From positions 1 through 30,455 of IMG/VR virus record IMGVR_UViG_3300005340_000065: a stretch of 30,455 bases of DNA; one strand, 5' to 3'. The stretch is from a virus. Shown here piece after piece: positions 7,306-25,290 of the stretch. Within the stretch, counting starts at the first letter, position 1, and every line of letters starts with the position of its first letter. Position numbers and translations under genes: made by a program. The notes below the pieces were generated by a model. That model made no database searches. It saw nothing but the letters and a program-made list of their open reading frames with translations, and was not told the DNA's origin.

Positions 7306-7309
7306 TGGT

Positions 7310-7468: not shown

Positions 7469-7737
7469 TGCGCCTTTGTTCGCGCATAGTATCCGCCGCC
7501 GCAATTATATTTACCTTGCGCGACTGGACTAGCCCACGGGCATTGCGCCTTTGTCGGCGCATACCATCCTTCGCCACAGTCAAAACGATTTCGATCATCC
7601 CTCGGATTGCTGCTGCAACCGCTAAACATAAGGAAGAGAAAGACTATCACGGTCGCTGTAGAGACGACGGCGCAGAAGGCGACGAGGCCACCGCCACCAA
7701 TTTCCATAGGCTCGCTTGGTTGAGGGTCTGGTATCAT
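7459..7737 (-). CDS. Probable lipoprotein with Cys-repeat (92 aa)
   Basis: The N-terminus has a long hydrophobic segment ending FLFLMFSGCSSN, a reasonable lipobox with Cys41. The exported part holds two copies of one motif, CGEGWYAPTKAQCP and CGGGYYARTKAQCP, each with a Cys pair likely to form a disulfide. The DNA of the two units is also similar, so this is a recent tandem duplication. An envelope location is inferred. The function is unknown. Confidence 0.6.
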   Translation of the reverse strand: MIPDPQPSEPMEIGGGGLVAFCAVVSTATVIVFLFLMFSGCSSNPRDDRNRFDCGEGWYAPTKAQCPWASPVAQGKYNCGGGYYARTKAQCP

Positions 7738-7874
7738 GTTGCGTTCCTGTGACTGACTTCCTTGAGTATCTCCTTCAACAAGTCGCGAATTTCTTCTAGG
7801 AGTTCTTGATTGGTTTGTTTCTGATTTGCGCGCATGTACAAGTCGGATGGTCTGCTATCGCGTGTCTGTGTCAT
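7734..7874 (-). CDS. 46-aa coiled-coil miniprotein
   Basis: ATG 7874 overlaps the upstream stop as ATGA and is preceded by GAAGAAG. The product reads MTQTRDSRPSDLYMRANQ and ends in a heptad-rich helix, LLEEIRDLLKEILKEVSHR. Its TGA overlaps the start of the lipoprotein gene. A small oligomeric helix is likely; the role is unknown. Confidence 0.6.
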   Translation of the reverse strand: MTQTRDSRPSDLYMRANQKQTNQELLEEIRDLLKEILKEVSHRNAT

Positions 7875-8065
7875 ATCTTCTTCTTTCTAGCCGCCACAAC
7901 ATCTGGGTTTAACTTCGAGTTGTACTCGTCGTATCCGTAGTTATTGGACGCATCATACTTCTGGCTGTTGATGCGAGGGTCCTTGCCGGTTGCGAATGCA
8001 ATGCCAACTTCCTTGACAGTTTCTGCCCACGCTACTATGCCAACTTCCAACAATCGTAAGATCAT
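7871..8065 (-). CDS. Hypothetical protein (64 aa)
   Basis: Starts MILRLLEVGIVAWAETVK behind AGGAGG. The first 25 residues are moderately hydrophobic. The rest is polar and Asn/Tyr-rich (YDASNNYGYDEYNSK) and ends AARKKKI. It may be a small anchored protein, but no family is recognised. Confidence 0.55.
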   Translation of the reverse strand: MILRLLEVGIVAWAETVKEVGIAFATGKDPRINSQKYDASNNYGYDEYNSKLNPDVVAARKKKI

Positions 8066-8265
8066 GGCTTGTCCTCCTTCTTTATTAAAGCGAGCGCGTT
8101 CTGCGCTGCCTTGGTGATAATCTTAACGCTGTCGACGCAGACCGATGAAGCCTGCATGGTTATCTTACTTAGCTCTAGTTGTCTGTCTCCGGTTTCTCTT
8201 AACAGATGCGCCATGTAAAGCTGCATCAGCAAGAGACCGATGATCGTAAGACGTTCGGCGCTCAT
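8062..8265 (-). CDS. Hypothetical helical protein (67 aa)
   Basis: Start at MSAERLTIIGLLLMQLYM (8265), where GAGGA and an ATGA overlap support it. ATGs further upstream lie inside the preceding gene. It has an N-terminal hydrophobic helix, then an amphipathic helical region ending ALALIKKEDKP. It may be membrane-associated. Confidence 0.55.
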   Translation of the reverse strand: MSAERLTIIGLLLMQLYMAHLLRETGDRQLELSKITMQASSVCVDSVKIITKAAQNALALIKKEDKP

Positions 8266-8513
8266 GCTGCTGTCCTCGGACATTTGCACGGCCAGTAATG
8301 ACAGACGGGACAGTTAGCGGTGTTAAATTGATTTTTTATAGATGCAACCTTGTCTCTGACACCTTGGTCACGCTTCCAAGCCGCCTCACACAGGTCTGTG
8401 ACTGCGCGACCAAGCGGAGTGCAACCTGCTTTGCGCGCACCAATTGCACCCTCGATTGCAACGACCAAGTCCCAGAGCGCTTGGCCGGTGAATTCGGTGT
8501 CGGCCAATTTCAT
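8262..8513 (-). CDS. Hypothetical protein with C-terminal CxxC/CxC (83 aa)
   Basis: Start at MKLADTEFTGQALWDL (8513), with GGAG and an overlap with the upstream stop. The longer reading to 8636 lies over another real gene in a different frame. The body is helical (VVAIEGAIGARKAG, LCEAAWKRDQGVRDK). The end CPVCHYWPCKCP carries four Cys residues and a His, probably a zinc site. No family is recognised. Confidence 0.6.
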   Translation of the reverse strand: MKLADTEFTGQALWDLVVAIEGAIGARKAGCTPLGRAVTDLCEAAWKRDQGVRDKVASIKNQFNTANCPVCHYWPCKCPRTAA

Positions 8514-8665
8514 CGACCTATCTCCGTTCCGATCACTAGATATATGTCGAAGTCTCTCAGCTTGAGGTTGCCAGTCGCGTTCTCCATGACCCACGTCTTG
8601 GCCTCGTTGCTCGTCTTGAAAGGTCCATAGCACCACTCACTCTTAAGAGTCACTACCCACATCAT
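8510..8665 (-). CDS. 51-aa hypothetical protein
   Basis: ATG 8665 behind GGAGG opens a frame starting MMWVVTLKSEWCYGPFKTS and ending LVIGTEIGR. The pattern of strand, helix (NEAKTWVMENA) and strand is that of a small alpha/beta domain seen in many phage miniproteins. Both ends overlap neighbours by four bases. A longer ORF in another frame hides this one. Confidence 0.65.
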   Translation of the reverse strand: MMWVVTLKSEWCYGPFKTSNEAKTWVMENATGNLKLRDFDIYLVIGTEIGR

Positions 8666-8787
8666 GGCCTCCATCCCGGTTGGATCAGCATCCTAACAAT
8701 CGAGTAGACCGCGCTGGCGGCGCACATGGCAAGCACAGCATAAAATATATGATAGAGGTGAATGACCATGAACCTTTTCCATTTCAT
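8662..8787 (-). CDS. 41-aa membrane miniprotein
   Basis: Starts MKWKRFMVIHLYHIFYAV behind AGGAG and ends IQPGWRP. One transmembrane helix of about 20 residues follows a basic N-terminus, suggesting that the N-terminus stays in the cytoplasm. It overlaps the stop of the epimerase gene and the start of the next gene by four bases each. Confidence 0.65.
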   Translation of the reverse strand: MKWKRFMVIHLYHIFYAVLAMCAASAVYSIVRMLIQPGWRP

Positions 8788-9704
8788 CTCGGGTTCTCCT
8801 GATACCATTTCATAGTTCGCTGCAATCCTTCTCGCAGCGATACCTTCGGCAAGAAGCCTAGCTTTCTAATCTTCGTTATGTCCGGGCAGCGGCGAACGGT
8901 CCCGCCGTCAAACATGTGGGAGGACGAGTTAAATTGTAAGTTGTGATCGGACAGAAGCATAATTTTATGAGCTAGATAATCTATTCTTATTTCATCATCA
9001 TTGCCAAGGTTGTAGATATTTTTGTGTTCGCCTTTCTCTCGCAGCAGCATCAATCCATCGACAGCATCGTCGATATAACAGAAGGCTCGCGTCTCGTTTC
9101 CAGCATGGAAGTTATCTGAGTTGCGCATGAGCCGGGGAATGATGTGCTCCTCTCCGGCATCAGGTCCATAGATGTTATGTGGACGGACGATGATAAGATT
9201 GTCGAAGTGTTTGGCGTTGTGGATGGCTACCATCTCTGACGCGATCTTCTGCACTGCGTAAGAGTAGCGCGGATTGAAAGGATCAGGGACAGAGTAAGGC
9301 ACCGTCTCGTCGGTTGGTATCTTCGGCGGAGTTTGGTAGACCTCTGACGACGAGATGACCATGAGTTTTTTAACGCGATGGTCTATGCAGGAAGTAACTA
9401 CATTACATATGCCGCGCAGTCCAACGTCGAGGACTTCAGCAGGTTTTTCATAAAAGTTCTTTGTGCCGTTGACAGAGGCCATGTGGATAACCTCGTCCAT
9501 TCCAAGGACTACTGATCTAACCTCGTGGTCTACTCTGACGTCGCCTATCATGCGTCTGTCTAGAATGACGGCATCCTGCACTCTGCAATAATTTCCCCTC
9601 GACGCATTGTCTAGAACGAATACATCCTCACCAGCCGCAACTAGTCGCTTGACGAGCGCTGCTCCGATAAAGCCGCAACCACCTGTGACGAGGACCCTCG
9701 ACAT
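8784..9704 (-). CDS. NAD-dependent sugar epimerase/dehydratase (SDR family)
   Basis: At 306 aa this is an extended SDR. The Rossmann motif VLVTGGCGFIG starts at residue 4. The Ser of SSSEVY and the catalytic YSYAVQK (YxxxK) are present, as are IVRPHNIYGP and a C-terminal substrate domain. Relatives act on NDP-sugars (UDP-glucose 4-epimerase, dTDP-glucose 4,6-dehydratase, GDP-sugar enzymes); the exact reaction cannot be told from sequence alone. ATG 9704 follows AAGGAG and overlaps the upstream stop. It shares the operon with the sugar C-methyltransferase and the TylF-like enzyme, so all three may build one modified sugar. Confidence 0.88.
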   Translation of the reverse strand: MSRVLVTGGCGFIGAALVKRLVAAGEDVFVLDNASRGNYCRVQDAVILDRRMIGDVRVDHEVRSVVLGMDEVIHMASVNGTKNFYEKPAEVLDVGLRGICNVVTSCIDHRVKKLMVISSSEVYQTPPKIPTDETVPYSVPDPFNPRYSYAVQKIASEMVAIHNAKHFDNLIIVRPHNIYGPDAGEEHIIPRLMRNSDNFHAGNETRAFCYIDDAVDGLMLLREKGEHKNIYNLGNDDEIRIDYLAHKIMLLSDHNLQFNSSSHMFDGGTVRRCPDITKIRKLGFLPKVSLREGLQRTMKWYQENPR

Positions 9705-9940
9705 CACTCCTTCTCCTTGGTCAGTCTGTCGACAATCTGGTTGACCGTCTCGCGGACGCAGAAGCCGTGAATCTGCGTCTCGATATAAGCGTTGGCTACA
9801 TACGAGAACATGGTGGTGTTCTCACATCTTCCTTTAATGCCCGTCACTGAAATGATTTGCGAAGTTACTAGCCAGACTGGATCGCCGTTTGATCCGGTCA
9901 GCTGGATGAAGGTCAAGGTTGCGATAAGGAGATTTTTCAT
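9704..9940 (-). CDS. Secreted hypothetical protein (78 aa)
   Basis: A signal peptide is likely: MKNLLIATLTFIQLTGS. The mature part has short strands (PVWLVTSQIISVTGIKG) and two Cys residues (GRCENT and GFCVRE) that could form a disulfide, then a C-terminal helix IVDRLTKEKE. An AAAGG site precedes the ATG. A periplasmic location is inferred. No family is recognised. Confidence 0.6.
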   Translation of the reverse strand: MKNLLIATLTFIQLTGSNGDPVWLVTSQIISVTGIKGRCENTTMFSYVANAYIETQIHGFCVRETVNQIVDRLTKEKE

Positions 9941-10116
9941 TTGCCTTTACTCTTGAAGAAGTCTGCCAATATTTTTTCAAATGCTTTGCTGCAATCAAAA
10001 CACAAGTCGTATTTCCCAGCATCAGGCCAAAAGGATGAATGTGGGAATATTGCCCATCCTGACCACTTCTTAGTAAGTTCTTTTCCACAGGCGTCGCAGA
10101 AGTTCTTCGTGCTCAT
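9937..10116 (-). CDS. Zinc-finger hypothetical protein (59 aa)
   Basis: Start at MSTKNFCDACGKELTKKW (10116), with a strong GGAGGAG site. The longer reading to 10221 is antiparallel to no real gene but lies in the wrong frame of the upstream gene. CDAC and CFDC pairs about 30 residues apart suggest a treble-clef or ribbon-type zinc site. The C-terminus is a basic helix (FEKILADFFKSKGK). Confidence 0.65.
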   Translation of the reverse strand: MSTKNFCDACGKELTKKWSGWAIFPHSSFWPDAGKYDLCFDCSKAFEKILADFFKSKGK

Positions 10117-10394
10117 TTTATCTCCTCCTCGATGCGCATGGCGTCGATGTACGTCGTGCCGTCGACTATCATCGTGTGGACATGAATGGTGCCTGTGGTC
10201 TTGAACCATCCTCCGTCGCACTGCTCCCAGCAGCCAGAGGCTAACTCTATTCCGTCATAGACTGCGGACTGTTTTTGTTGTTGTTGTTGTTGTTTACGTC
10301 CTTCGTCTAGCCAGACAGAAATGAAGAGAAGTCCGAGTAGAATAAATGCGCAAACAAGACCGAGAGTGACCCACATTAAATTTGGCATGCCCAT
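10113..10394 (-). CDS. Membrane protein with poly-Gln linker (93 aa)
   Basis: Residues 5 to 28 form a transmembrane helix (LMWVTLGLVCAFILLGLLF). A charged turn and a run of six Gln follow, encoded by CAA repeats, and then a domain of short strands with two Cys residues (SGCWEQCDGG, IHVHTMIVDGTTYID). GGGAG precedes the ATG. The poly-Gln run probably acts as a flexible linker. Repeat-length changes here would stay in frame. The function is unknown. Confidence 0.6.
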   Translation of the reverse strand: MGMPNLMWVTLGLVCAFILLGLLFISVWLDEGRKQQQQQQKQSAVYDGIELASGCWEQCDGGWFKTTGTIHVHTMIVDGTTYIDAMRIEEEIK

Positions 10395-10618
10395 TATTCT
10401 CTCCCAAGTATCTTTATGTGACTGTCGCCGTATTTGCCGAGAAACCTTATCTGAATTTGATGTTGCTCCAGACCGTATTCATTTATTCGCATGTGCTCGT
10501 TCGCGCAGTTCCAGCAGCAGAACACGCGGCGACGTTCGGGGAATTGCGGCGATAGCATCTCCGTGTGCATCGGTCCGCTCGACGCGTCCGCTCGTCCGCA
10601 GTGGTAGCACGTGGTCAT
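10394..10618 (-). CDS. Zinc-binding hypothetical protein (74 aa)
   Basis: Reads MTTCYHCGRADASSG and then VFCCWNCANEHMR, giving CxxC and CxxC pairs about 30 residues apart, as in MYM- or FCS-like treble-clef fingers. The C-terminal part is beta-rich (QIQIRFLGKYGD). It joins its neighbours by a TAATG and an ATGA overlap. The partner is unknown. Confidence 0.65.
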   Translation of the reverse strand: MTTCYHCGRADASSGPMHTEMLSPQFPERRRVFCCWNCANEHMRINEYGLEQHQIQIRFLGKYGDSHIKILGRE

Positions 10619-10986
10619 GTCTTCTTCTCGGTTGTGAGCTGAAGTCCGAACAGCTCTATGCTTTTGAAATCTCCTTCGACGCGAAGGTCATCGAGAAATG
10701 TATGTTTATAATCCGGATCGACCTTAGCCCAGTAGCTAATCCAAGCTTCATCATTCCCTTTAACTTCTGGAAGGATCGACGCCTGAATCGTGCTTTGGTT
10801 ATCATCGTCGATACAGTCGATGATAATTTTCTTAATCTTTCCGCCTGCGACGTGAATTTGATAATTATGCCAGAGGTTATCTAACGCAACAGTCTTCTCA
10901 GCGACGCTCTCCGCTACCGCAGCAGGAACGCTCGCTGCGACGAGCGCGGCGGTTAAGCCTTTGATGAAGTCGCGACGAGAGGTCAT
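10615..10986 (-). CDS. Protein with twin-arginine (Tat) signal (123 aa)
   Basis: Start at MTSRRDFIKGLTAALVAAS (10986), behind AGGAA. The SRRDFIKG motif, an Ala-rich hydrophobic core and a PAAVAES cleavage region form a textbook Tat signal, so the protein should be exported folded. The mature part (about 95 aa) is acidic and beta-rich: YQIHVAGGKIKKIIIDCIDDD, then EAWISYWAKVDPD. No cofactor motif is recognised. The longer reading to 11121 is the wrong frame over the gene at 10983-11147. Confidence 0.7.
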   Translation of the reverse strand: MTSRRDFIKGLTAALVAASVPAAVAESVAEKTVALDNLWHNYQIHVAGGKIKKIIIDCIDDDNQSTIQASILPEVKGNDEAWISYWAKVDPDYKHTFLDDLRVEGDFKSIELFGLQLTTEKKT

Positions 10987-11147
10987 GCGTTCGTTCCTAT
11001 CGCGATAAGTGATCCGCCGACCATTCCTAAACCTGTAGAAAATATCGGCGTGATATCGGACGGGAGAAACCAAGCTAGCGCCATGCCAGCGGTAATGACG
11101 AGAGCACCGCCGAATATCCAAACGAACCTATCTGCTGAGTCCATCAT
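10983..11147 (-). CDS. Two-helix membrane miniprotein (54 aa)
   Basis: Opens MMDSADRFVWIFGGALV and ends SLIAIGTNA. Two hydrophobic segments, one at about residues 9 to 28 and one at about 36 to 52, are joined by a short polar turn with Pro. The AGAGGA site, the ATGA overlap with the preceding gene and the overlap with the Tat-protein start support this frame over the longer ORF in another frame. Confidence 0.65.
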   Translation of the reverse strand: MMDSADRFVWIFGGALVITAGMALAWFLPSDITPIFSTGLGMVGGSLIAIGTNA

Positions 11148-11323
11148 TGCGTCCTCTCTCCTTCGAACCTGGTGATGCGCAATTCCGGGTTGAACCTTAT
11201 CTCAGGCTTGCCATCCTTCTTTCGAAAATAAATTCTCATCTCGCGCCACTCTTCGTCAGTCGCGCCAAGTGCCAGCTCTTTCATCTTCTCTAGGTTTAGA
11301 ACCTCTTCAGGCTTTTTGATCAT
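11144..11323 (-). CDS. Hypothetical protein (59 aa)
   Basis: ATG 11323 behind AGGTGA starts MIKKPEEVLNLEKMKELAL. A helical N-terminus is followed by strands (EMRIYFRKKDGKPEIRFN) and a basic tail ending FEGERTQ. It fills the gap between two genes and overlaps the next by four bases. No family is recognised. Confidence 0.65.
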   Translation of the reverse strand: MIKKPEEVLNLEKMKELALGATDEEWREMRIYFRKKDGKPEIRFNPELRITRFEGERTQ

Positions 11324-11330
11324 GGATCAC

Positions 11331-11543
11331 CTATGGTCGATGTGGACAATTAAATGAAGCGCACTTCCAGTTTGGTATTGAGTAAATCCTGTCCCCACAA
11401 AATTCGCAAACACCCAAGGCTTCAAACTTGGTAGGTGGCAATACTGCTAGACCGTAAACCTTGGCTCTTTCTTTAGCTTCACGCTTTCTACGCTCTATGC
11501 CCTCACGTTCCGTTCTCTCGTATTGTTCGTCATAGTGTCCCAT
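11331..11543 (-). CDS. Zinc-ribbon protein, possibly DksA/TraR-like (70 aa)
   Basis: A charged N-terminal helix (YERTEREGIERRKREAKER) precedes CEFCGDRI and a further CASFNC pair. Small phage TraR/DksA proteins have such a helix followed by CxxCGxxI and a second CxxC. Here the second pair is CxxxxC and DksA tip residues are not clear, so the assignment is weak. The start may be ATG 11543 or the GTG at 11552 that overlaps the upstream stop. Confidence 0.55.
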   Translation of the reverse strand: MGHYDEQYERTEREGIERRKREAKERAKVYGLAVLPPTKFEALGVCEFCGDRIYSIPNWKCASFNCPHRP

Positions 11544-11548
11544 GTCGT

Positions 11549-11848
11549 TCACCAGCTATTTCGAAAGATGATTGACACGACGCTCTCTGGAAGCTTGGCA
11601 ATTTCGACGACGTAATCAAGAGAGCCGTCGCCTTCTCTCTCTTGCACGATTTCACTTAAGTCAACTTCCAGAGCCTGCTCAGCGATGTATTCCGGATTAT
11701 CATAGCCGTTGCAGTGCTCGCCAAAATAGTCGCTGACTTCTTTCGGTGGTTCTATGCCTGCTTGTTGGCAAGATTTAAGGACAGCAAAATATTTTTTGAA
11801 TGCATCGTCTCTGGCCCGTTGGCCGATGACACTAGTGCTCATACTCAT
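11549..11848 (-). CDS. Hypothetical protein (99 aa)
   Basis: Starts MSMSTSVIGQRARDDAFK behind GGAGGG. It is helical and acidic (YFAVLKSCQQAGIEPPKE, YIAEQALEVDLSEIVQE), and the C-terminus is hydrophobic, ending SIIFRNSW. It was not recognised, though soluble and likely a compact helical fold. Confidence 0.6.
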   Translation of the reverse strand: MSMSTSVIGQRARDDAFKKYFAVLKSCQQAGIEPPKEVSDYFGEHCNGYDNPEYIAEQALEVDLSEIVQEREGDGSLDYVVEIAKLPESVVSIIFRNSW

Positions 11849-11866
11849 GTCGCCCTCCTTCGCCTC

Positions 11867-12526
11867 TTACGGCTTGATCATCATGACCCCAGTCTGGTCG
11901 ATAGGCTTTAGCAGAGTGTTGTATGCTATTCCCTTCTTGTTAAAGTATTCCTGACACGCTTCACGACTTCCGCGCCAGTGGCCGTAGTCATCGACGATGA
12001 GAACTCCTCCCTTAACCAATCTCGGATAGAGGACCTGCAATTCAATCTTCGTCGATTCATACCAGTCGGTGTCGAGACGGAGCAGAGCGATCTTTTCCGG
12101 AACATTATTTTTTAAAGTCTCTTCAACTTTACCCTGAACCATGATGCACTTTGTCACGTCCCAAACTCCTTCAGCGCGAAGATTGCCTTGAACTTCTTCG
12201 ACCGAAGCCGCAGCCCACTTATGTCCGTTTGCGGTTTTGGCGCGCCATGTTTCTATTGCTCGTCGTCCCTTGTCGTGGACTTTCACGTCGCGGTCCGTTG
12301 GCTCTGGCATACCGTCGAAGGTGTCGAACAGCCAGCAAACACGTGATGGACATATCCATCTGGCAAGAATGATATGGCCACCCTGCCACACCCCGCACTC
12401 GACGATGTCTCCCGGAAGTTGGCACTCGTCTATCCTCCTGCAAGCGTCGATCATGGCCTGAAGTCGTTTCCGGCTGGCTTTCGAATAGTGGCCGTACACC
12501 CGGTCGATCATTTCGCTGTCATTCAT
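11867..12526 (-). CDS. TylF/MycF-like O-methyltransferase
   Basis: At 219 aa it matches the macrocin O-methyltransferase family. GDIVECGVWQGG is the SAM-binding start, then LFDTFDGMPEPTD with the metal-binding region, RLDTDWYESTKIEL, and GGVLIVDDYGHWRGSREA. TylF and MycF are metal- and SAM-dependent enzymes that methylate sugar hydroxyls; many homologues occur in surface-polysaccharide clusters. No good ribosome site precedes the ATG. Together with the sugar C-methyltransferase and the epimerase it suggests a methylated deoxysugar, but the acceptor is not visible here. Confidence 0.88.
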   Translation of the reverse strand: MNDSEMIDRVYGHYSKASRKRLQAMIDACRRIDECQLPGDIVECGVWQGGHIILARWICPSRVCWLFDTFDGMPEPTDRDVKVHDKGRRAIETWRAKTANGHKWAAASVEEVQGNLRAEGVWDVTKCIMVQGKVEETLKNNVPEKIALLRLDTDWYESTKIELQVLYPRLVKGGVLIVDDYGHWRGSREACQEYFNKKGIAYNTLLKPIDQTGVMMIKP

Positions 12527-12528
12527 TT

Positions 12529-12822
12529 TTATGGGCGCGCTGGTTTGTTAGCCGGACCAGCGGGAACTGACGACGTCGGTTGCTCGTTCTTAAACTTGTA
12601 AATGGCCGGAACTTCCATGACCCGCTTGTTACTCAGCTTGGTTAGGCGAGATGAGTCGAACCAGTGGCCGTTCTCGATCTTGCCGTCCTTATCCAGCTTT
12701 TGGCTGCGAATGCAGTACTGAACGCAGCCGTAGAGGTCGAAGCATACGCTGTCGCAGACGCCCTCGTAGTTAGTGATGACGTCCCTGTATCGGTGGCCGA
12801 GAACTTCCAGATGCTTTTCCAT
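12529..12822 (-). CDS. Conserved phage-type protein (97 aa)
   Basis: The pattern MEKHLEVLGHRYRDVITNYEG, then SVCFDLYGCVQYCI, DKDGK and GHWFDSSRL is that of a small beta-barrel protein which I recall from many phage genomes as a hypothetical. In such proteins a GxxVxDxxTxxxG strand opens the barrel. The last 20 residues are Pro/Ala-rich and probably disordered. GGAG precedes the ATG. The role is unknown. Confidence 0.6.
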   Translation of the reverse strand: MEKHLEVLGHRYRDVITNYEGVCDSVCFDLYGCVQYCIRSQKLDKDGKIENGHWFDSSRLTKLSNKRVMEVPAIYKFKNEQPTSSVPAGPANKPARP

Positions 12823-12849
12823 TTTGTCGCTCCGTTGTTTAAAAACCTA

Positions 12850-13167
12850 TTACCCGTATCTAGCTGCCCGTTCAGGATGCATTAAACGAAGTCTAGTAAG
12901 CAATTCATCTTCACCAACGCTGCATTCGTAAGGCGTAAAATTTATCTTTTTATCCGTGTCTTTATCTGGTGGTATCCCTGCGCTATGAACGTTTGCCGAT
13001 CGCACGCGCTTTTTTAAAGCAACACCTAATTTGCTTGCACGATTTTGAATAGTAGGCCACATTCTTTTTATTAATCGTTCTAAGCCTCTTACAGAAATAA
13101 CAAGCTCGCCCGACGCGTAACGTCTTATTATATCATCTTCCAGCTCAGTAAATTCCCTTATTGCCAT
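12850..13167 (-). CDS. Small helix-turn-helix (SANT/Myb-like) protein (105 aa)
   Basis: Residues 1 to 50 (AIREFTELEDDIIRRYASGE, then TIQNRASKLGVALKKR) resemble the bacterial SANT/Myb-like HTH: an acidic first helix and a final recognition helix with xxxNRASKLGV. The rest is polar and ends LMHPERAARYG. It overlaps the end of the gcrA-like gene by 10 bases, so the two regulators should be made together. DNA binding is inferred. Confidence 0.6.
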   Translation of the reverse strand: MAIREFTELEDDIIRRYASGELVISVRGLERLIKRMWPTIQNRASKLGVALKKRVRSANVHSAGIPPDKDTDKKINFTPYECSVGEDELLTRLRLMHPERAARYG

Positions 13168-13607
13168 TGGTCGGGTTTCCTACGCGAAACATCATAGTGA
13201 GTGTAGCAGTACGGTGTGCCTTCCAAGATTTTTCGACCGCAAAAATAAATATCTGTTTCACCAAAAGGCCAACGGCAATGGTTGTGTTCCAACTCAACCA
13301 GTGTTTTGCCATCATTACGAGACACGTCAATATTTTCAAGCGGCAATTGTTTGTAGTTAACAGACTGAATTTTAATTTTTCGGTTAAGCATCAATTGCTT
13401 TTTAGGTCTTTCTTTGCGTTCGCCATTAAGATGTGCCACTCTTCTTCCGCCACTGCTGTTTGTCATTGGCACATGCATTCGATGCAATTTTCCAATAATA
13501 GCGTTACGGCTTTTTGTTTCTATTACGGCTGACATTTCAGTTGCACTCAGACCATCCTTGTTAAGTGTTAACAACAATGATACTTCGTCTTCTGTCCAGT
13601 TCATCAT
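13158..13607 (-). CDS. gcrA: GcrA-family cell-cycle regulator
   Basis: The N-terminal helix-turn-helix reads MNWTEDEVSLLLTLNKDGLS and then SRNAIIGKLHRM, the GcrA signature. The C-terminal domain has HCRWPFGETDIYFCG and GTPYCYTHY, the conserved sigma-70-contact region with its Cys/His pattern. GcrA is an alphaproteobacterial factor that binds RNA polymerase sigma-70 and DNA methylated by CcrM at GANTC. At 149 aa it has usual family length but a longer basic linker. A GGGGAAG site precedes ATG 13607 (or 13604). A phage copy could redirect host cell-cycle promoters or regulate phage promoters carrying GANTC. Confidence 0.9.
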   Translation of the reverse strand: MMNWTEDEVSLLLTLNKDGLSATEMSAVIETKSRNAIIGKLHRMHVPMTNSSGGRRVAHLNGERKERPKKQLMLNRKIKIQSVNYKQLPLENIDVSRNDGKTLVELEHNHCRWPFGETDIYFCGRKILEGTPYCYTHYDVSRRKPDQWQ

Positions 13608-18598: not shown

Positions 18599-18897
18599 AT
18601 CTCTCTCCTCTGCCCGTTACCGCCGATCCTTGGCCACTGTGTGAAATTCCCCGGTCCGCTCTGTTATGATTAGTATGCCCTATCCCACAGGAAAGTAAAG
18701 AGGGTTGGAACGATGATCGTTAATAAGTCATATCAAACAGAGGGTTATTCTGTGCTAAAATACGCAATAAAATTGCTAAGAAAAATTAGGGTCCAAAACC
18801 CCTTCTTTCCTTTGCTGCCCGGTCGGGTGGAGTTGCGCCTGTGGATTTTTTCGGCTAGGCTGCCCTTCCCCGCGATGGGATTTAGGAAAAGGTTAAA
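18599..18897. promoter_or_regulatory. Divergent control region between the two arms
   Basis: All genes to the left run leftward and all to the right run rightward, so promoters for both arms must lie here or close by. The centre (18725-18790) is AT-rich. A TAAAAT box near 18755 on the plus strand, and TTTACT with a poor -10 on the minus strand, are possible sigma-70 elements, but none is convincing. A 64-codon frame at 18713-18907 has a weak ribosome site and is not called. Confidence 0.6.
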
Positions 18898-19698
18898 ATG
18901 CAAGTAGAGCCTTTCTTCGCGTTTGCACGCGAACGACACAAAATATATCTGGCACGCAAAGCAGGAAAACCTGCACCTTGGACTGCCGATTCAATCTTAC
19001 AAAAATATCGCTTTACGAATGTTTTTCGTGAACTGGATGCAACCACAATCTGGTTTCGGCAAAATCTTCGCGACCCGTTAAAAAACTTAATTGAAGTCCT
19101 TCCGGCTACCGTCGTCTTCCGCTGGTTCAACCGGATAACGACCGGTGAAGTAATAATGCGAAACCGAAATTATCTTAACCCGAAAAAATTACGATTGGCG
19201 ATTGAAAAAATTCCGCCGCCATACGTAACCGGTGCGTACATGATTTATACAACTTGTCTCGGCGCGCCAAACAAGCAGGAAGGCGTGCTGCAGGCAATTG
19301 AAATCTGGTATAACACCCATAAGGATTGGCGTAAATTTAAATTTGATAAATTACAGACGGCAGCGGAATGGATGAGTTCAACTTGTCTTGGCGGTTTTAT
19401 GACCTACGAGATTGTAAGCGACCTGCGGCATACTTCTCTCTTACGCAACGCGACCGACATAAACACTTGGGCACATTTTGGACCCGGCGGTCAGCGCGGA
19501 CTCGAGCGGGTCGCTGGTAAAGGTGCCGATTTAAAAGCAGCACAAGAGTTACTAGCTATGTCACGTAACAGTAAGTTCTGGCCCGCGCAATGGCCCGCTT
19601 GGGAAATGCGAGAAGTCGAGCACACCTGCTGCGAATATCTGAAATATACGAAAGTACAAAACGGCGAAGGCCACCCGAAAGGATTGTTCAAATGCTAA
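18898..19698 (+). CDS. Thymine-hypermodification enzyme (aGPT-PPlase / HMUDK helical superfamily)
   Basis: The 266-aa all-helical protein carries the family signatures: YRFTNVFRELDATTIWFR at residues 37 to 54, AYMIYTTCLGAP, SSTCLGGFMTYEI, HFGPGGQRGLERV and the final EVEHTCCEYLKYTKVQNGEG. This superfamily holds alpha-glutamyl/putrescinylthymine pyrophosphorylases and the helical domain of 5-hmdU DNA kinases. No Walker A loop is present, so it is closer to the stand-alone pyrophosphorylase type, which acts on 5-hydroxymethyl-dU pyrophosphate in DNA. It is the first gene of the rightward arm. Its presence suggests that this phage replaces part of its thymine with a modified base. Confidence 0.82.
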   Translation: MQVEPFFAFARERHKIYLARKAGKPAPWTADSILQKYRFTNVFRELDATTIWFRQNLRDPLKNLIEVLPATVVFRWFNRITTGEVIMRNRNYLNPKKLRLAIEKIPPPYVTGAYMIYTTCLGAPNKQEGVLQAIEIWYNTHKDWRKFKFDKLQTAAEWMSSTCLGGFMTYEIVSDLRHTSLLRNATDINTWAHFGPGGQRGLERVAGKGADLKAAQELLAMSRNSKFWPAQWPAWEMREVEHTCCEYLKYTKVQNGEGHPKGLFKC

Positions 19699-20402
19699 AG
19701 CAGGGGCGATTTGGTAAGGATAAGATCAAGGCTTGGTATCGACCGGGCACGACCGACGAAAATGCTCTTATTGAAGTACTGGATAAACGTGCCTACCGCA
19801 GAGCTTCCGCTAAGTTTGATGTCGAAGCTGGGGAACATTGGCTCGATCTTGGTGCCAACATAGGGGCGTTCGCCTTATACTGTAAATCCAAAGGGGCAAA
19901 AGTAATTAGTATTGAACCGATGCAAGATTGCTTCGATATATTAATTAAAAATACAGAACCTAAGCGGTGCCTCCAAACGGCCGTAACTAATATCGATGCA
20001 CCTTTTATTCAATTTTGGACTGCAAAAAACTCAACTGATCACTATCGCGGCACAATATTGCCACGTAGAGCTGCAAATGCGCCGATTATGGTAAAAAATA
20101 TTTACGGAGAGTATCTTTTTCCAGGTGAAAAATTTGACGGTATAAAAATGGATATTGAAGGTGCAGAATTTGGTTTAATTGATGATTGGCTATTACCAAA
20201 ATCAAATAAACTAGTATTCGAATATCATCTGAGTCGTGACAATTCCCTGCAAAATTTAGCGAAACGTTTTCGTATTCTGCGCAAGCATTATAAGAACGTT
20301 GTCGCTTGTCCAGAACTAATGCGTCTTGTCAAAAAGGGCACCGGCACCGGACGGACTTACTTCGATCGATGTGTTTATTGTTGGGGGTTAAAAAATGCCT
20401 AG
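19692..20402 (+). CDS. FkbM-family methyltransferase
   Basis: Start at MLKQGRFGKDKIKAWYRP (19692), behind AAGGA and overlapping the upstream stop by seven bases. The longer reading to 19590 lies inside the previous gene. The 236-aa protein has the FkbM pattern: WLDLGANIGAFALYCKSKG for SAM binding, VISIEPMQDCFDIL, and DGIKMDIEGAEFGLIDD. FkbM enzymes are O-methyltransferases of sugars or small molecules. Placed between the hypermodification gene and the thymidylate synthase homologue, it may methylate the base adduct. This is inference. Confidence 0.85.
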   Translation: MLKQGRFGKDKIKAWYRPGTTDENALIEVLDKRAYRRASAKFDVEAGEHWLDLGANIGAFALYCKSKGAKVISIEPMQDCFDILIKNTEPKRCLQTAVTNIDAPFIQFWTAKNSTDHYRGTILPRRAANAPIMVKNIYGEYLFPGEKFDGIKMDIEGAEFGLIDDWLLPKSNKLVFEYHLSRDNSLQNLAKRFRILRKHYKNVVACPELMRLVKKGTGTGRTYFDRCVYCWGLKNA

Positions 20403-21117
20403 ATCTGGTCTTGACTTTACAAAACATTTTCTCTGCGCTCCAGCGAAACTTCTGTTGGGCGATGAAACACGCCAGCGCGGATATCCTGACTTTAGTAAAG
20501 CTGCGGAGCGACGTGCACTGCAGCATGTCGGTGATCGTCTTCCTGATTCACATCAATTTATGAAAGAATTTATCCAAGACGACGATCGCCTAGCAGCTAT
20601 CTTAGTCCGACGTGCAGAAGCGTGCCTAACGCCTGAACAACATGCGAATGGCAAAAATGAGCTTGTCAGGTTTGAGCGTCCTGATTTTTCTGTCACATAT
20701 AACGCTGTCGTCAAATCAACAGAACGCTTAACGGTTTCGCGGTTACAAGAGTTACAGGAACGACAAATATTAATCAAAGCAGCTGTTGGACCTGCACTTT
20801 ACATTCGATATAACCCAGAAATGCCCCGATACATTTATGTAGGCACAACGCTTGATGTTAACAGTCGAAATAATGGTCACTGTAACTCTGGGCTTTATCT
20901 GTGGGATGTATTTAGCCTTCCAAATTTAACTACCGCGTTAGGTGTAGAAAATAAAACACATACATGGTTACAAACGATTGGTGAATCTGCGAGGGAAAAT
21001 ACCAGAGGGTTATTTATCGTAAATAAAGATTTAGGAAATGCACGTAGTCTGGTGCGAAACTTTTTGCGGACAACTTATGACTTCCTGTTCCATAATTCCG
21101 CGCATGGTGTGGACTGA
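20395..21117 (+). CDS. Uncharacterised protein, possible divergent GIY-YIG fold (240 aa)
   Basis: No family is recognised with confidence. The N-terminal 100 residues are polar and helical (YPDFSKAAERRALQHVGDRL, DDRLAAILVRRAEA). From about residue 136, ALYIRYNP, then RYIYVGTTLDVNSRNNGH recalls the GIY, YIG and Arg/His elements of GIY-YIG nucleases, but the catalytic Glu is not clear. ENTRGLFIVNKDLGNARSLV follows near the end. GGGGG before ATG 20395 and an overlap with FkbM place it in the hypermodification operon, so it may be an accessory enzyme of that pathway. Confidence 0.6.
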   Translation: MPRSGLDFTKHFLCAPAKLLLGDETRQRGYPDFSKAAERRALQHVGDRLPDSHQFMKEFIQDDDRLAAILVRRAEACLTPEQHANGKNELVRFERPDFSVTYNAVVKSTERLTVSRLQELQERQILIKAAVGPALYIRYNPEMPRYIYVGTTLDVNSRNNGHCNSGLYLWDVFSLPNLTTALGVENKTHTWLQTIGESARENTRGLFIVNKDLGNARSLVRNFLRTTYDFLFHNSAHGVD

Positions 21118-21156
21118 AATCAAAATGCGCGCATATCACAGCAAGGCGAAAACTAA

Positions 21157-21357
21157 ATGACACCCGAACAAGCAACAGCTCGTGGCTGGAAACGGGAACG
21201 GTGTCCCTGCTGCAATGGCGCTGGCATGGAAAGCGACTACGGCAATGGCGAGGATTTTTACGGACCAAAAGAATGTGGTTGCTGCTACGGCAATGGCAGT
21301 TATTGGCTTACGCCCAAAGGTCGACACGTTGTTTGGCCCGGTGGACCGTTCTGCTAA
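21157..21357 (+). CDS. CxxCxGxG zinc-knuckle protein (66 aa)
   Basis: Reads MTPEQATARGWKRERCPCCN and has two knuckles, CPCCNGAG and CGCCYGNG, typical of DnaJ-like zinc hairpins. The Gly/Tyr-rich middle (ESDYGNGEDFYGPKE) is flexible. It is the only member of this class in the rightward arm, next to the nucleotide-modification genes. AAGG precedes the start. The function is unknown. Confidence 0.65.
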   Translation: MTPEQATARGWKRERCPCCNGAGMESDYGNGEDFYGPKECGCCYGNGSYWLTPKGRHVVWPGGPFC

Positions 21358-21370
21358 AGGAATTAAATAA

Positions 21371-21547
21371 ATGAAACGCATCTACCGTGGCTTCGCAATC
21401 GAGTACCCGCCAAGTATGAAGCAGTTCTTCGTTTGTGAAACGAACGGTAAAGTCCTCGCTACAACAAACTCCTATAACGAAGCTTGCTCTTGGATCGATT
21501 TTGAAATCCGCCGTCAACGACTGGAAGTTTTCCCGGAGGATAAATAA
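21371..21547 (+). CDS. 58-aa hypothetical protein
   Basis: A frame between two genes starts MKRIYRGFAIEYPPSMKQF and ends RLEVFPEDK, with AAAGGA before the ATG. It has a strand-strand-helix outline (FFVCETNGKVLATTNSYNEA, CSWIDFEIRRQ) common to small phage proteins. Its TAA shares one base with the ATG of the thymidylate synthase homologue (TAATG), which suggests translational coupling. Confidence 0.65.
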   Translation: MKRIYRGFAIEYPPSMKQFFVCETNGKVLATTNSYNEACSWIDFEIRRQRLEVFPEDK

Positions 21548-22509
21548 TGCTTACTATTTATGCAGTAAATGTGCGCGATGCCTTACCGCAGGGGATCAGA
21601 CTTCTCAAAGAAGTCGGCGAACTCGAACAAAGTCGCAACGGTACTGTGCTGGTTGCACCGTGCCCCGTTATGACCGTTTATGAACGCCCAACGGAGCGAG
21701 TACTGTTTTCTGCGGAACGGGACGCTAATCCCTTTTTCCATTTGGCTGAAGCTTTGTGGATGTTAGCGGGCAGAAGGGATGCAGAATTCTTAAACCAGTT
21801 CATCAAGGATTTTGGCGAACGTTTTGCGCAACCGGACGGCAGACTTCATGGCGCGTATGGTTATCGCTGGCGCGTCCATTTTATAAAGGATCAGCTCGAA
21901 GAAATCATTATGATGTTATTACGCGACCCAACAACCAGACATGCTGTGCTGACCATGTGGGACCCGGTTGTTGATTTAGGAGTTTTATCACATCTTAAGG
22001 ATCGCCCTTGCAACACACAAGCTTATTTTCGCATCAATAAAAACGCCTTAGACATGACAGTACTTTGTCGCTCCAACGATATTATCTGGGGGTTATACGG
22101 TGCCAACGCTGTACATTTTTCTGTTCTCCAAGAATACATGGCAGCTCAGCTCGAGCTTCCGGTTGGCGTTTATTACCACCTAAGTAATAATTTTCATGCC
22201 TATCAAACCGAACTAGAAAAACGTTCAGGCACGATGGAAGATGCTCGGGAAATATCAACGCAGCCATTAGTCGACGCACCAGCTTATTTCGATGAAGAAC
22301 TCGCCGCTTTATTGCAGGGTGCTGAACCAGATTTTCACAACCTTTTCTTAAGCGACACAGCATTTCCTATGTTTGACGCCTATCGAGCATGGAGAAAAAA
22401 GGAATTTGTCAGAGCTCGCTTAATTCTTTCGGAAGTAAGGGCAGACGATTGGCGTACGGCTTGTCAGGAATGGCTCTGGCGGAGGACAAAACATGTCGTC
22501 GCTGCGTGA
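21547..22509 (+). CDS. Thymidylate synthase / dUMP hydroxymethylase homologue
   Basis: The 320-aa protein keeps the ThyA-fold active site: E68 (FFHLAEALWML), W108 (GYRWRVHF), the nucleophile C155 in RPCNT, R175-S176-N177-D178, N187 in GLYGAN and H217/Y219 in NNFHAYQ. The residue after the Cys is Asn where ThyA has His. The Asn at 187, not Asp, points to dUMP as substrate and argues against a dCMP hydroxymethylase. Whether the product is dTMP or 5-hydroxymethyl-dUMP cannot be told by eye; the nearby hypermodification gene favours 5-hmdUMP. It overlaps the HD gene by 17 bases. Confidence 0.85.
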   Translation: MLTIYAVNVRDALPQGIRLLKEVGELEQSRNGTVLVAPCPVMTVYERPTERVLFSAERDANPFFHLAEALWMLAGRRDAEFLNQFIKDFGERFAQPDGRLHGAYGYRWRVHFIKDQLEEIIMMLLRDPTTRHAVLTMWDPVVDLGVLSHLKDRPCNTQAYFRINKNALDMTVLCRSNDIIWGLYGANAVHFSVLQEYMAAQLELPVGVYYHLSNNFHAYQTELEKRSGTMEDAREISTQPLVDAPAYFDEELAALLQGAEPDFHNLFLSDTAFPMFDAYRAWRKKEFVRARLILSEVRADDWRTACQEWLWRRTKHVVAA

Positions 22510-23011
22510 TAGAATTTACAGTTCTCCGGTTATGGCAGCGCGGTTAAAGCGCTACCACGCTTGGCCAGTCTTACATCAACAAACGGTCGGCGAACATTGT
22601 GCACGAGTGGCTAACATCTATTGTGAAATCTTCGGTATGCCCAGCGCTAACGTTTTTTATTATATGCTCAACCACGACGCCGGAGAACTGTTAGCCGGGG
22701 ATGTGCCCTTTGGTGGCAAGGACCACGTTAAGGAATTACGAGCAGCCATTCAGGAAGCGGAAGAAATTGGACGAACCTTATTAAAGATCGATTTGCCGCG
22801 CTTATCCCTAGATGAACAAAGCAAAGTCAAGATCGCAGACTTACTGGAAATGTACGAATTCGGTTGTCTGGAAGAGCTGATGGGCAACCGATTGGCTGCA
22901 CCCGTTACGGACGAAACCTTATCCGCTGCGCTGAAGATTGCTGATAAAATCTTTGTGCGCGAACCCGTTCTACGTTGGATCAAACAACAGGAGTTATCTC
23001 ATGACCGCTAA
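22493..23011 (+). CDS. HD-domain deoxynucleotidase (YfbR/DatZ-like)
   Basis: The 172-aa protein has the metal site of YfbR-type HD phosphohydrolases: RYHAWPVLHQQTVGEHCARV with H35, then MLNHDAGELLAGDVPFG with H61 and D62. YfbR removes phosphate from dNMPs; the phage relative DatZ removes dATP in 2-aminoadenine phages. Here it lies between the thymidylate synthase homologue and PolA, so it may deplete a canonical dNTP such as dTTP or dATP. A GGAGG site precedes ATG 22493. No purZ is present in the window. Confidence 0.8.
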   Translation: MSSLRDRIYSSPVMAARLKRYHAWPVLHQQTVGEHCARVANIYCEIFGMPSANVFYYMLNHDAGELLAGDVPFGGKDHVKELRAAIQEAEEIGRTLLKIDLPRLSLDEQSKVKIADLLEMYEFGCLEELMGNRLAAPVTDETLSAALKIADKIFVREPVLRWIKQQELSHDR

Positions 23012-23453
23012 CAATTACCAGATCGGTGGCACGCATTATAAAAGCAAGTATGAGCACTGGGACCTTGTAGCCGATACGGAAATGGGTTATCTGGAAGGCT
23101 GCGTTACAAAATATATTTCCCGCCATAAAAAGAAGCATGGGTTAATTGATCTGCAAAAGGCCAAACATTATTTAACAAAATTAATTGAAACCTGTGAATA
23201 TCACAGAGCGCACCGAAAAAATATCTACGTTGGCGCAGCGTTCGGCAACGTCGATTATTTTTGTCAGGTAAACAAGATTGGTAACGACGAACGCAGAGTC
23301 ATGAAACTCGTCGCGGCTTGGCAATTAAAAAACGATTTAGAACAAGCCTTGGATGCACTGCAGCAACTAATCGAAATATATGAACCGGTGCTGCCTTTCC
23401 CTGAACAATTTCGTCCCGGCACTCCGGAAGACGGCGGACACCATGCAGCCTAG
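23001..23453 (+). CDS. DUF3310 domain protein (150 aa)
   Basis: Start at ATG 23001 (MTANNYQIGGTHYKSKYE) with AGGAG; the earlier in-frame start lies deep in the HD gene. The DUF3310 pattern is clear: QIGGTHYKS, EHWDLV, GYLEGCVTKYISRHKKKHG and LIDLQKAKHYLTKLIE. The family is common in phage nucleotide-metabolism regions, and related domains are sometimes fused to nucleotide kinases, but it has no proven activity. The C-terminal 60 residues are a separate helical extension. The gene overlaps both neighbours. Confidence 0.82.
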   Translation: MTANNYQIGGTHYKSKYEHWDLVADTEMGYLEGCVTKYISRHKKKHGLIDLQKAKHYLTKLIETCEYHRAHRKNIYVGAAFGNVDYFCQVNKIGNDERRVMKLVAAWQLKNDLEQALDALQQLIEIYEPVLPFPEQFRPGTPEDGGHHAA

Positions 23454-25290
23454 CTTTCCGTCATTGAAATCGGCCAAGCTGATTTCTATCGACTGCGAAA
23501 CTAAAGATGAACAATTGAAGACACACGGTCCCGGTTATCACCGTGACGGTGCGATCGCTGGCGTTGCTATCGCTGTTGACGGCTTTAGCGAGTACTACCC
23601 CGTTGCCCATGAAGGAGGTGGCAATCTCGACAAGGCAAAAGTATATGCTTGGTTAAGGGAGCAGCTACGAGGCGACCAGCCCAAACTATTCGCACATGCT
23701 GCATACGATCTAGGCTTTTTGAATAGCGCAGCGATTAAAGTCAACGGGCCAATTTATGATGTACAAATTGCTGAACCGTTGTTAAACGAAAGTCGTCGTT
23801 CATATTCGCTAGAAACCTTGTCGCAACATTATCTGAAACGCGGCAAGAAAAAGAATGAACTAAATGAATGGATCGGACAAAAGTTTGGTAAGACAGGTCA
23901 ACGCACTCCAGGAAATTTTATTTGGCGTGCGCCCGGTTCTATCGTACGCGATTACGCCATCGAAGATACACAACTCCCGTTGGAAATCTTCCCTATCCAG
24001 AAAAGAGCGCTTGAAGCAGAAAATTTGTGGGACTTATTCTTGTTAGAAAGCCGTCTTATTCCGATGCTGGTTGCTATGCGGATGCGTGGCGTGCAAATCG
24101 ACCTCGCAGCAGCCGAACGACTTTACGAAACGATGACCAAAAAGCAGAAACAGCTCGGCAAGAAGATTGGCGATACCGGTCCGGAAACGTTTGTTTGGTT
24201 AACCGCACCGGTCGCAGCCTTGTTTGACAAGGAAGGTATCGAGTATCCGAGAACTCCAAAGACTAACCGCCCGTCGTTTACAAAGGAATGGCTCGCGGCT
24301 TGCCAGCACCCCATTGGAAAACTAGTACAGGAAATCCGGCACTTGGATCGGATGCGTAATACGTTTGTTAAAGGCGTTGTTTTGGAAGGGCACCACAAAG
24401 GCCGGTTGCACGCCTCGTTTAACCAATTGCGCAGCGATGCCACCGGCACAGTGAGTGGCCGCTTTAGCTCCTCGCAGCCGAACCTGCAGCAAATCCCGGT
24501 GCGCACCGAATTGAGTAAACCAATCCGCAGTCTTTTCTTGCCCGACAAAGGCCAGGATTTTGGTACAACGGATTTTAGCCAAATCGAGTTTCGTTTGTTA
24601 GCATTGGCAGCAGCCGAACAAGGTTTAAGAAGCGGTAATAAATTCATGGAGGCGTACAACAAGGATCGTAATACAGATTTTCATCAAGTCGTTGCGGACA
24701 TGACCGGGCTACCCCGAAATTACGCAAAGACAATAACGTTCGCAGCAGCATATGGTGCTGGCCCAGCTAAGATCGCAATGCAGCTTGGCATGGACGAAGC
24801 CAAAGGCATGAAGCTGTTAAACGAATACCATCGACGCGCGCCGTTCATTAAACCGTTGAGCGGGATTTATCAGGATCAAGCAGAAGAACACGGTGAAATT
24901 ACAACGCTACTCGGCCGCAAGCGGCGGTTCAACAAATGGCAGGTCAAAGGAGTAGTCGATAAGCAAGGTATCCCAATTTTATTTGACAAGCGGGTGGCTA
25001 ATTCACAACGTGCATTTACCTACCGTGCGCTCAACGCCTATATCCAAGGTTCGGCAGCCGATGTCCTTAAGCAAGCCATGGTGCTGCTCTGGGAAGGTGG
25101 AGTATGTGACGTACTCGGAGCTCCGCATTTGACCGTACACGATGAACTCGACGTCAGCGTACCAAAGAATAAAGTGGGCCGGGAGGCTTTTAAGGAAATG
25201 GTTCATACGATGGAAACAGCAGTTGATCTGGCCATTCCGTTACTGGTTGATCACGGGCTTGGTAAAAACTGGGGTGAAGCAAAAGGATAA
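23443..25290 (+). CDS. polA: Family A DNA polymerase with 3'-5' exonuclease
   Basis: Start at ATG 23443 (MQPSFPSLKSAKLISID), overlapping DUF3310; an earlier in-frame start would add 21 residues. The proofreading domain has Exo I ISIDCETKD (D17, E19), Exo II HAAYDLGFL and Exo III YAIEDTQLPL. The polymerase domain has motif A TDFSQIEFRLLA, motif B RNYAKTITFAAAYGAG and motif C LTVHDELDVSV. Motif B has Thr for the usual Asn and Ala for Gly, and keeps the Phe. At 615 aa it lacks a 5'-3' nuclease domain, as usual for phage replicases. Confidence 0.95.
   Translation: MQPSFPSLKSAKLISIDCETKDEQLKTHGPGYHRDGAIAGVAIAVDGFSEYYPVAHEGGGNLDKAKVYAWLREQLRGDQPKLFAHAAYDLGFLNSAAIKVNGPIYDVQIAEPLLNESRRSYSLETLSQHYLKRGKKKNELNEWIGQKFGKTGQRTPGNFIWRAPGSIVRDYAIEDTQLPLEIFPIQKRALEAENLWDLFLLESRLIPMLVAMRMRGVQIDLAAAERLYETMTKKQKQLGKKIGDTGPETFVWLTAPVAALFDKEGIEYPRTPKTNRPSFTKEWLAACQHPIGKLVQEIRHLDRMRNTFVKGVVLEGHHKGRLHASFNQLRSDATGTVSGRFSSSQPNLQQIPVRTELSKPIRSLFLPDKGQDFGTTDFSQIEFRLLALAAAEQGLRSGNKFMEAYNKDRNTDFHQVVADMTGLPRNYAKTITFAAAYGAGPAKIAMQLGMDEAKGMKLLNEYHRRAPFIKPLSGIYQDQAEEHGEITTLLGRKRRFNKWQVKGVVDKQGIPILFDKRVANSQRAFTYRALNAYIQGSAADVLKQAMVLLWEGGVCDVLGAPHLTVHDELDVSVPKNKVGREAFKEMVHTMETAVDLAIPLLVDHGLGKNWGEAKG

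Follow-up and report, generated by a model that had tools for sequence, protein, structure and literature searches.

Gene content of the locus

The window analysed here is a 30,455-nucleotide stretch of viral DNA, whose record is itself a genome fragment. Positions 18898-22509 encode HMUDK_hel, an FkbM methyltransferase, three small non-conserved genes and a thymidylate synthase (TS)-like gene; a YfbR-like phosphatase and DNA polymerase A follow. The original prediction had listed an HMUDK-helical protein, an FkbM methyltransferase, a 240-aa protein, two small proteins and a TS homologue in one operon, and all of these are present, in a single tightly packed run on the + strand:

18898..19698, + strand: HMUDK_hel, helical protein; proposed 5-hmdU DNA recognition/base-presenting module (PF18723, E 1.5e-39)
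19692..20402, + strand: FkbM-family SAM methyltransferase; proposed O-methyltransferase of 5-hmdU in DNA (PF05050, E 5.5e-08)
20395..21117, + strand: 240-aa protein with a faint GIY-YIG-like signal (PF01541, E 0.028, below cut-off)
21157..21357, + strand: 66-aa Cys-rich (CxxC) small protein (weak Anti-TRAP/zinc-ribbon matches only)
21371..21547, + strand: 58-aa small protein, no family in profile searches
21547..22509, + strand: TS-like dUMP hydroxymethylase, predicted to make 5-hmdUMP (PHROG 5131, E 3.3e-98; PF00303, E 3.7e-21)
22493..23011, + strand: YfbR-like HD 5'-deoxynucleotidase (PF12917, E 8.9e-07)
23001..23453, + strand: DUF3310 protein, linked operon gene (PF11753, E 6.4e-08)
23443..25290 (start at 23380 or 23443 possible), + strand: family A DNA polymerase, same operon (PF00476, E 2.6e-63)

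Promoter matches in the window are at chance level and terminator matches at about twice chance.

The first gene matched PF18723 with a score of 136.5 (cut-off 25 bits) and PHROG 2396 with an E-value of 6.8e-52, and therefore the original prediction, which hinged on this gene matching the family in a profile search, holds on that point. Every invariant residue of the family is kept in the protein. Its AF2 model (pLDDT 95.1) was compared with known structures using Foldseek: the best match is the 5-PmdU glycinyltransferase PUGT (PDB 8z2n; probability 0.97, TM 0.45-0.48, at a weak E-value of 0.19), and the model also lies near HhH-GPD glycosylases such as 3n0u (TM 0.40-0.48, likewise weak, with E-values of 0.19 or more). 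The second gene most likely starts at the ATG at 19692, overlapping the stop of the first, and not at 19590. Its match to PF05050 is over the cut-off, its AF2 model (pLDDT 91) has a class I methyltransferase fold, and the Foldseek matches are class I methyltransferases.

The TS-like protein is 47% identical to YuA gp17, annotated as a putative deoxyuridylate hydroxymethyltransferase, and retains the PCN and GAN motifs. An alternative is that this gene is an ordinary thymidylate synthase, in a phage that modifies nothing and carries HMUDK_hel as a relic. The protein does belong to the PF00303 fold family, but it is closest to PHROG 5131 and YuA gp17, its best PDB match is a CMP 5-hydroxymethylase, and the neighbouring HMUDK_hel is intact, all of which makes this explanation highly improbable. 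The gene is thus predicted to encode a dUMP hydroxymethylase making 5-hmdUMP and, together with the identity of HMUDK_hel, it supports the proposal that the locus would make 5-hmdUMP and then modify it. The adjacent gene for a YfbR-like 5'-deoxynucleotidase keeps its place beside TS in YuA and in most of the loci, and the enzyme may remove competing dTMP.

The intervening genes fared differently. The HMUDK_hel-FkbM-TS-YfbR-PolA order is kept in 71%-identical relatives, which lack the 240-aa gene and the two small genes. Outside copies of the same phage, no relative of the 240-aa protein was seen in the loci fetched, and other genes occupy its position in L003 and L013; its GIY-YIG signal is sub-threshold. 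With no conserved relative, the 240-aa protein was rejected as a pathway enzyme, and it is probably an inserted accessory gene. Neither small ORF was found in relatives, the 66-aa protein occurring only in copies of this phage. Thus, the original interpretation stands as regards a modification locus and a methyltransferase that departs from known pathways, but not as regards the 240-aa and small proteins as pathway members.

Absence of the kinase and of the amino-acid branch

The P-loop 5-hmdU kinase (PF18748) was searched for with a 31-sequence profile (A7), to which the positive controls YuA, Ab18 and L028 respond. The window record gave no match, and neither did G001, a record 99.6% identical to it, or the relatives, in agreement with the original observation that no hmdU kinase was visible. 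G002 is a complete relative of 51.6 kb, with contig G005 running across its junction. Neither the kinase nor the ADDT (PF18724) profile matched in G002, nor in G003, G006, G007 and G011. Across the window and its clade, kinase, ADDT and TAGT are all lacking, again with responding controls. The TAGT profile was silent in the window and G001-G005, Glycos_transf_1 in G002, G003 and G011, and TET/JBP (PF12851) in the window and G002; PALP and radical SAM homologues were not found in the ORFs of the window, G001 and G002. Truncation of the window record does not account for the missing kinase, which is lacking even in G002, whose completeness the closing contig demonstrates. Pattern and profile searches of the window and G002 for P-loop kinases yielded a UvrD helicase alone, its motif being the one P-loop-like motif found in any recognisable gene of G002.

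Comparison with two of the closest known systems places these absences in context. The 5-(2-aminoethyl)-dU locus of Pseudomonas phages M6/YuA (Mesyanzhinovviridae) shares with the window the order HMUDK_hel, TS-like, YfbR-like, PolA; it has the P-loop kinase, ADDT, PALP, radical SAM and Nmad5, whereas the window has none of these and carries FkbM instead. In the Ab18/PaMx11 locus, the source of PUGT, HMUDK_hel is 44-45% identical to that of the window over its full length and a TS-like gene is likewise a neighbour, but Ab18 has kinase and ADDT while the window has neither.

The phage could also have a kinase/amino-acid pathway that depends on an unrelated gene or one that escaped detection, FkbM then methylating a downstream intermediate such as an amine or a carboxylate. 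Such an arrangement would fit the fragmentary state of the window record and the locus L094, where kinase, ADDT and a putative FAD lyase accompany an FkbM of the window's clade. However, the silence of the kinase and ADDT profiles in complete G002 and in the four other relatives, and the assignment to UvrD of the sole P-loop-like motif in a recognisable G002 gene, make it quite unlikely.

Exchange of partners around HMUDK_hel and FkbM

We then considered 83 HMUDK_hel genes and their neighbours. The kinase is in the locus of 47, an adjacent FkbM in that of 13, and none of the 83 has both (Fisher p 5e-6 for 74 distinct sequences, with kinship ignored). This exclusion is not strict, as L094, a later locus outside the 83, demonstrates; given its combination of FkbM, kinase and ADDT, the substrate of FkbM may be a different 5-substituted base, or 5-hmdU left over by the kinase route, a point against the reading favoured below. 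The HMUDK_hel-FkbM adjacency is conserved in relatives of the window, and L095 and L199 are further pairs. In the HMUDK_hel tree, FkbM pairing requires three changes, and it has had at least three origins. In these loci, an FkbM methyltransferase repeatedly occupies the usual place of the kinase. Loci with neither pairing mostly have glycosyltransferases or another methyltransferase, such as the Methyltransf_23 beside HMUDK_hel in L061-L086, where the records tested contain no kinase, TAGT or Glycos_transf_1.

The invariant HMUDK_hel residues are common to members paired with kinases, FkbM, glycosyltransferases (GTs) and methyltransferases, and no fusion of HMUDK_hel with FkbM or kinase was found among the loci examined. 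On the best reading, HMUDK_hel would be a shared module presenting 5-hmdU DNA, with a weakly HhH-glycosylase-like fold. What has been called a "kinase helical domain" may be re-read as a recognition module independent of its partner.

FkbM enzymes are otherwise known mainly as sugar O-methyltransferases. This counts against direct methylation of 5-hmdU, as does the presence of GTs in several FkbM loci. FkbM could instead methylate a sugar placed on 5-hmdU by a phage or host glycosyltransferase, giving O-methyl-glycosyl-5-hmdU. Loci L030-L049, L057, L192 and L199 indeed combine FkbM and HMUDK_hel with a GT-B or TAGT, and L188 carries that GT-B but lacks FkbM. The window also encodes an epimerase, a C-methyltransferase and TylF. 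Against this, TAGT and Glycos_transf_1 are missing from complete G002 and from G003. Furthermore, in the FkbM tree, for which loci were picked by similarity to the FkbM of the window (long or unassigned rows being left out of a cleaner version), GT-linked and GT-free proteins split cleanly (100/98), with the window's FkbM on the GT-free side. The TAGT/GT-B loci resemble the window in having HMUDK_hel and a TS-like hydroxymethylase without kinase, but their partner is a glycosyltransferase and any FkbM falls in the GT-linked set, unlike that of the window. Overall, we consider a sugar substrate unlikely.

On its side of the tree, the window's FkbM groups with those of ParB-FkbM-TET/JBP cassettes, more than 50 further loci in which FkbM lies beside TET/JBP and ParB. 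Pfam searches verified TET/JBP in 16 of the 17 cassette records, and a C5-MTase is absent from 13 of 14 such records, which favours thymine as the oxidised base. In cassettes such as those of HTVC112P and MED4-117, a source of hydroxymethyl-pyrimidine adjoins an FkbM of the window's clade, and as in the window clade the records tested show no TAGT or Glycos_transf_1. Unlike in the window, TET/JBP generates the hydroxymethyl group directly on DNA, and neither HMUDK_hel nor a TS-like hydroxymethylase was detected there. The window-type FkbM clade is therefore linked to hydroxymethyl-producing genes without glycosyltransferases.

FkbM might finally be a hitch-hiker acting on, for example, host glycans or virion proteins, leaving unmodified 5-hmdU in virion DNA. 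Some phage contigs do have FkbM-family matches with no recognised modification gene nearby (such as L155, L159-L163), but in every one of the 13 FkbM loci among the 83 the gene abuts HMUDK_hel, with three or more origins, and FkbM recurs beside TET/JBP and ParB in the cassettes. We regard a hitch-hiker as very unlikely.

A candidate route to 5-methoxymethyl-deoxyuridine

We favour, with a modest degree of confidence, the view that this is a phage 5-hmdU thymine-modification locus of a type that works without the kinase. In this scheme 5-hmdUMP would be synthesised by the TS-like enzyme for incorporation by the phage polymerase; in duplex DNA, HMUDK_hel would recognise and present 5-hmdU, presumably by base flipping; and the adjacent FkbM would use SAM to methylate the 5-hydroxymethyl oxygen, yielding 5-methoxymethyl-dU. 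Gene order, conservation, absence of the kinase and amino-acid branch, partner exchange and the GT-free FkbM clade support this kinase-free scheme. The missing kinase and the methyltransferase in its place suggest a simpler, apparently undescribed base, in keeping with the earlier proposal that the methyltransferase lies outside known pathways and that the end product may be new. Full-text searches, whose coverage excluded Iyer 2013, Lee 2018, Lee 2022 and Wen 2024, turned up no paper that connects FkbM to hydroxymethyl-pyrimidines in DNA.

A methyl ether would cap 5-hmdU with a minimal group and without charge; it could protect against restriction and could also deny the hydroxyl to glycosyl- or kinase-type enzymes. 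More broadly, and tentatively, at close to even chances, 5-methoxymethyl-deoxyuridine may be natural in many uncultured phages through two routes, dUMP hydroxymethylase with HMUDK_hel and FkbM, or TET/JBP with FkbM, and HMUDK_hel may be a general 5-hmdU-DNA adaptor for exchangeable kinases, methyltransferases and glycosyltransferases. The scheme offers a concrete, checkable structure for a phage DNA base. Among 50,697 phage records, none from a cultured phage combined HMUDK_hel with a close FkbM. The cultured phages HTVC112P, MED4-117, MED4-184 and P-HS2 would allow a direct test of the FkbM prediction, although HTVC112P has one annotated glycosyltransferase, located by its tail genes, which counts against the scheme.

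Genes and predicted proteins of the operon

The genes named earlier at 18898-22509 are all present, on the plus strand and in one overlapping run, whose further members encode a YfbR-like phosphatase, a DUF3310 protein and DNA polymerase A. The profile searches assign three of them:

18898-19698, + strand: HMUDK_hel helical protein (PF18723, E 1.5e-39; PHROG 2396, E 6.8e-52), the family proposed earlier for the first gene
19692-20402, + strand: FkbM methyltransferase (PF05050, E 5.5e-08)
21547-22509, + strand: thymidylate synthase (TS) homologue (PF00303, E 3.7e-21; PHROG 5131, E 3.3e-98)

The TS-like protein is 47% identical to gp17 of phage YuA, with the PCN nucleophile and GAN motifs preserved, and has a CMP 5-hydroxymethylase as its top PDB match. 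The FkbM model (pLDDT 91) has the class I methyltransferase fold. The top PDB match of the HMUDK_hel model (pLDDT 95.1, pTM 0.91) is the 5-PmdU glycinyltransferase PUGT (8z2n), a weak match (prob 0.97, TM 0.45-0.48, E 0.19), and the next include HhH-GPD glycosylases, e.g. 3n0u (TM 0.40-0.48); the predicted fold may, tentatively, be compatible with a base-presenting DNA-binding fold. The 240-aa ORF gave a GIY-YIG signal alone, below threshold (Pfam, E 0.028). Like the two small ORFs, it matched nothing in the loci compared beyond copies of the same phage. Genes judged by eye to be GIY-YIG-like adjoin HMUDK_hel in L016 (10861-11274), L031 (10878-11498) and L094 (6554-7165), near the position of the window's 240-aa protein.

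Modification enzymes sought in the window and its relatives

The window record is a linear IMG/VR fragment (30,455 bases), an incomplete virus sequence. Its relative G002 (51,561 bases) is complete, since contig G005 spans its junction: G005 1-13450 aligns with G002 38131-51561 and from 13455 runs on into G002 1-4517. Those of the larger G002 genes that were checked serve replication or encode portal, head, terminase and tail proteins. No P-loop 5-hmdU kinase had been visible in the window, and a 31-sequence kinase profile, to which YuA, Ab18, L028 and L094 all respond, is silent there too, as it is in G001 (99.6% identical) and the relatives' records, including L003, L012, L013 and L093. These four, 65-71% relatives, retain the order HMUDK_hel-FkbM-TS-YfbR-PolA, and different genes occupy the place of the 240-aa ORF. 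The amino-acid:DNA transferase (ADDT) profile gave the same pattern of silence and response. The window, G001 and G002 showed no PALP or radical SAM homologue; the TAGT glycosyltransferase profile is silent across the window clade, and that of Glycos_transf_1 in G002, G003 and G011.

Three further window genes stand without an evident glycosyltransferase:

4398-5579, - strand: sugar C-methyltransferase-like (Methyltransf_14)
8784-9707, - strand: NAD-dependent epimerase
11867-12526, - strand: TylF O-methyltransferase

A GcrA cell-cycle regulator homologue lies at 13158-13607 (- strand; PF07750, E 1.9e-27). GcrA is typical of Alphaproteobacteria, and its homologue therefore hints at an alphaproteobacterial host. 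Two G002 (locus L006) proteins (18815-19477 and 19499-20098) carry a PEP-CTERM-like sorting tail, a hydrophobic stretch followed by a basic end. Comparison of the two near-identical phage records showed a repeated segment and rearranged end (window 1-314 and 6974-7118; G001 24831-25144).

Matches to HMUDK_hel were found by tblastn in 128 phage records (top identity 44-45%). In Ab18 and YuA, HMUDK_hel is placed in the same early region. Pfam identifies YuA gp10 as ADDT, gp11 as PALP, gp12 as radical SAM, gp13 as P-loop kinase, gp14 as HMUDK_hel, gp15 as Nmad5, gp17 as TS-like hydroxymethylase and gp18 as YfbR-like; Yuavirus genes of this type have been described as leading to 5-(2-aminoethyl)-dU (2025; PMC11946847).

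Partners of HMUDK_hel and of FkbM

Among 83 HMUDK_hel rows (74 distinct), a kinase lies within the locus in 47, mostly as the adjacent gene (some kilobases away in L016-L031), FkbM is adjacent in 13, and both occur together in none. Most rows with neither have TAGT or GT-B nearby. Further loci have FkbM adjacent (L095, L199) or with GT-B in between (L192), and L094 alone combines FkbM, kinase and ADDT, so that the exclusion is strong yet not absolute. The FkbM label changes at least three times on the maximum-likelihood HMUDK_hel tree (window clade, marine clade, L057), and across 65 proteins that cover every partner type, residues including R44, E45, D47, E171, D175, D187, W191, E241 and K249 do not vary.

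A Methyltransf_23 enzyme accompanies HMUDK_hel in L061-L086, upstream of HMUDK_hel and TS in L061, L063, L064, L077, L078 and L084-L086; no kinase, TAGT or Glycos_transf_1 was found in the tested records of these loci. Might a second family of methyltransferases play the same role here? In L129, L165 and L166, FkbM clusters with glycosyltransferase-like, inositol-phosphate-synthase-like and small phosphatase-like proteins and a distant HMUDK_hel. An HMUDK_hel and TS-like pair with no other partner found occurs in L193, L194, L195, L196 and L202; in L194 (5860-7907; Hyphomicrobium sp. CS1BSMeth3, 2.7-Mb contig) its neighbours are recA and a uracil-DNA-glycosylase-like gene.

FkbM loci were gathered from 2.9 million viral contigs by similarity to the window's FkbM. 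The closest relatives lie in thymine-modification loci (L091-L095), and most of the next, in more than 50 loci, in a ParB-FkbM-dioxygenase cassette. This three-gene ParB-FkbM-TET/JBP arrangement is seen again and again, in over 50 phage contigs (L099-L158 and others), and Pfam confirmed Tet_JBP in 16 of 17 cassette records. Cultured Pelagibacter phage HTVC112P has gp17 ParB, gp18 Tet_JBP (E 1.1e-29) and gp19 FkbM, and one annotated glycosyltransferase, adjoining tail genes; gp18 (L203 5085-5993, MN698246.1) is annotated as a DnaJ/SNF2 protein, yet is a Tet_JBP dioxygenase. Prochlorococcus phage MED4-117 gave a weak Tet_JBP match (Pfam). No cytosine-C5 methyltransferase was found in 13 of 14 cassette records, the HTVC112P and MED4-117 genomes included, which makes it more likely that thymine is the base oxidised. 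In a tree of FkbM proteins without long or unassigned rows, a branch with 100/98 support parts glycosyltransferase-linked proteins from glycosyltransferase-free ones, namely the TET cassette, the window clade, L094 and L095. The larger tree retaining those rows agrees, placing the window within a TET-rich group (98/84) with no glycosyltransferase row.

Proposed mechanism and product

One FkbM clade is common to two unrelated 5-hydroxymethyl-pyrimidine sources, the TS-like hydroxymethylase and TET/JBP, and is the only recognisable further enzyme in both routes. The simplest reading is that this FkbM methylates the hydroxymethyl oxygen, which would give 5-methoxymethyl-dU; base flipping, like this chemistry and product, is what we infer from the genomic facts. 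In the TS-like route HMUDK_hel would recognise 5-hmdU in DNA, presumably as it does for the kinase and, elsewhere, for glycosyltransferases. To our knowledge 5-methoxymethyl-dU is not among the DNA bases known from nature, and full-text searches returned nothing on it as such; the main pathway papers may possibly have mentioned FkbM in such operons earlier. A possible role of the YfbR-like phosphatase is to reduce dTMP and so let hmdUTP be used, comparable to the dTTPase that has been reported in phage phiW-14 (PMC5977210).
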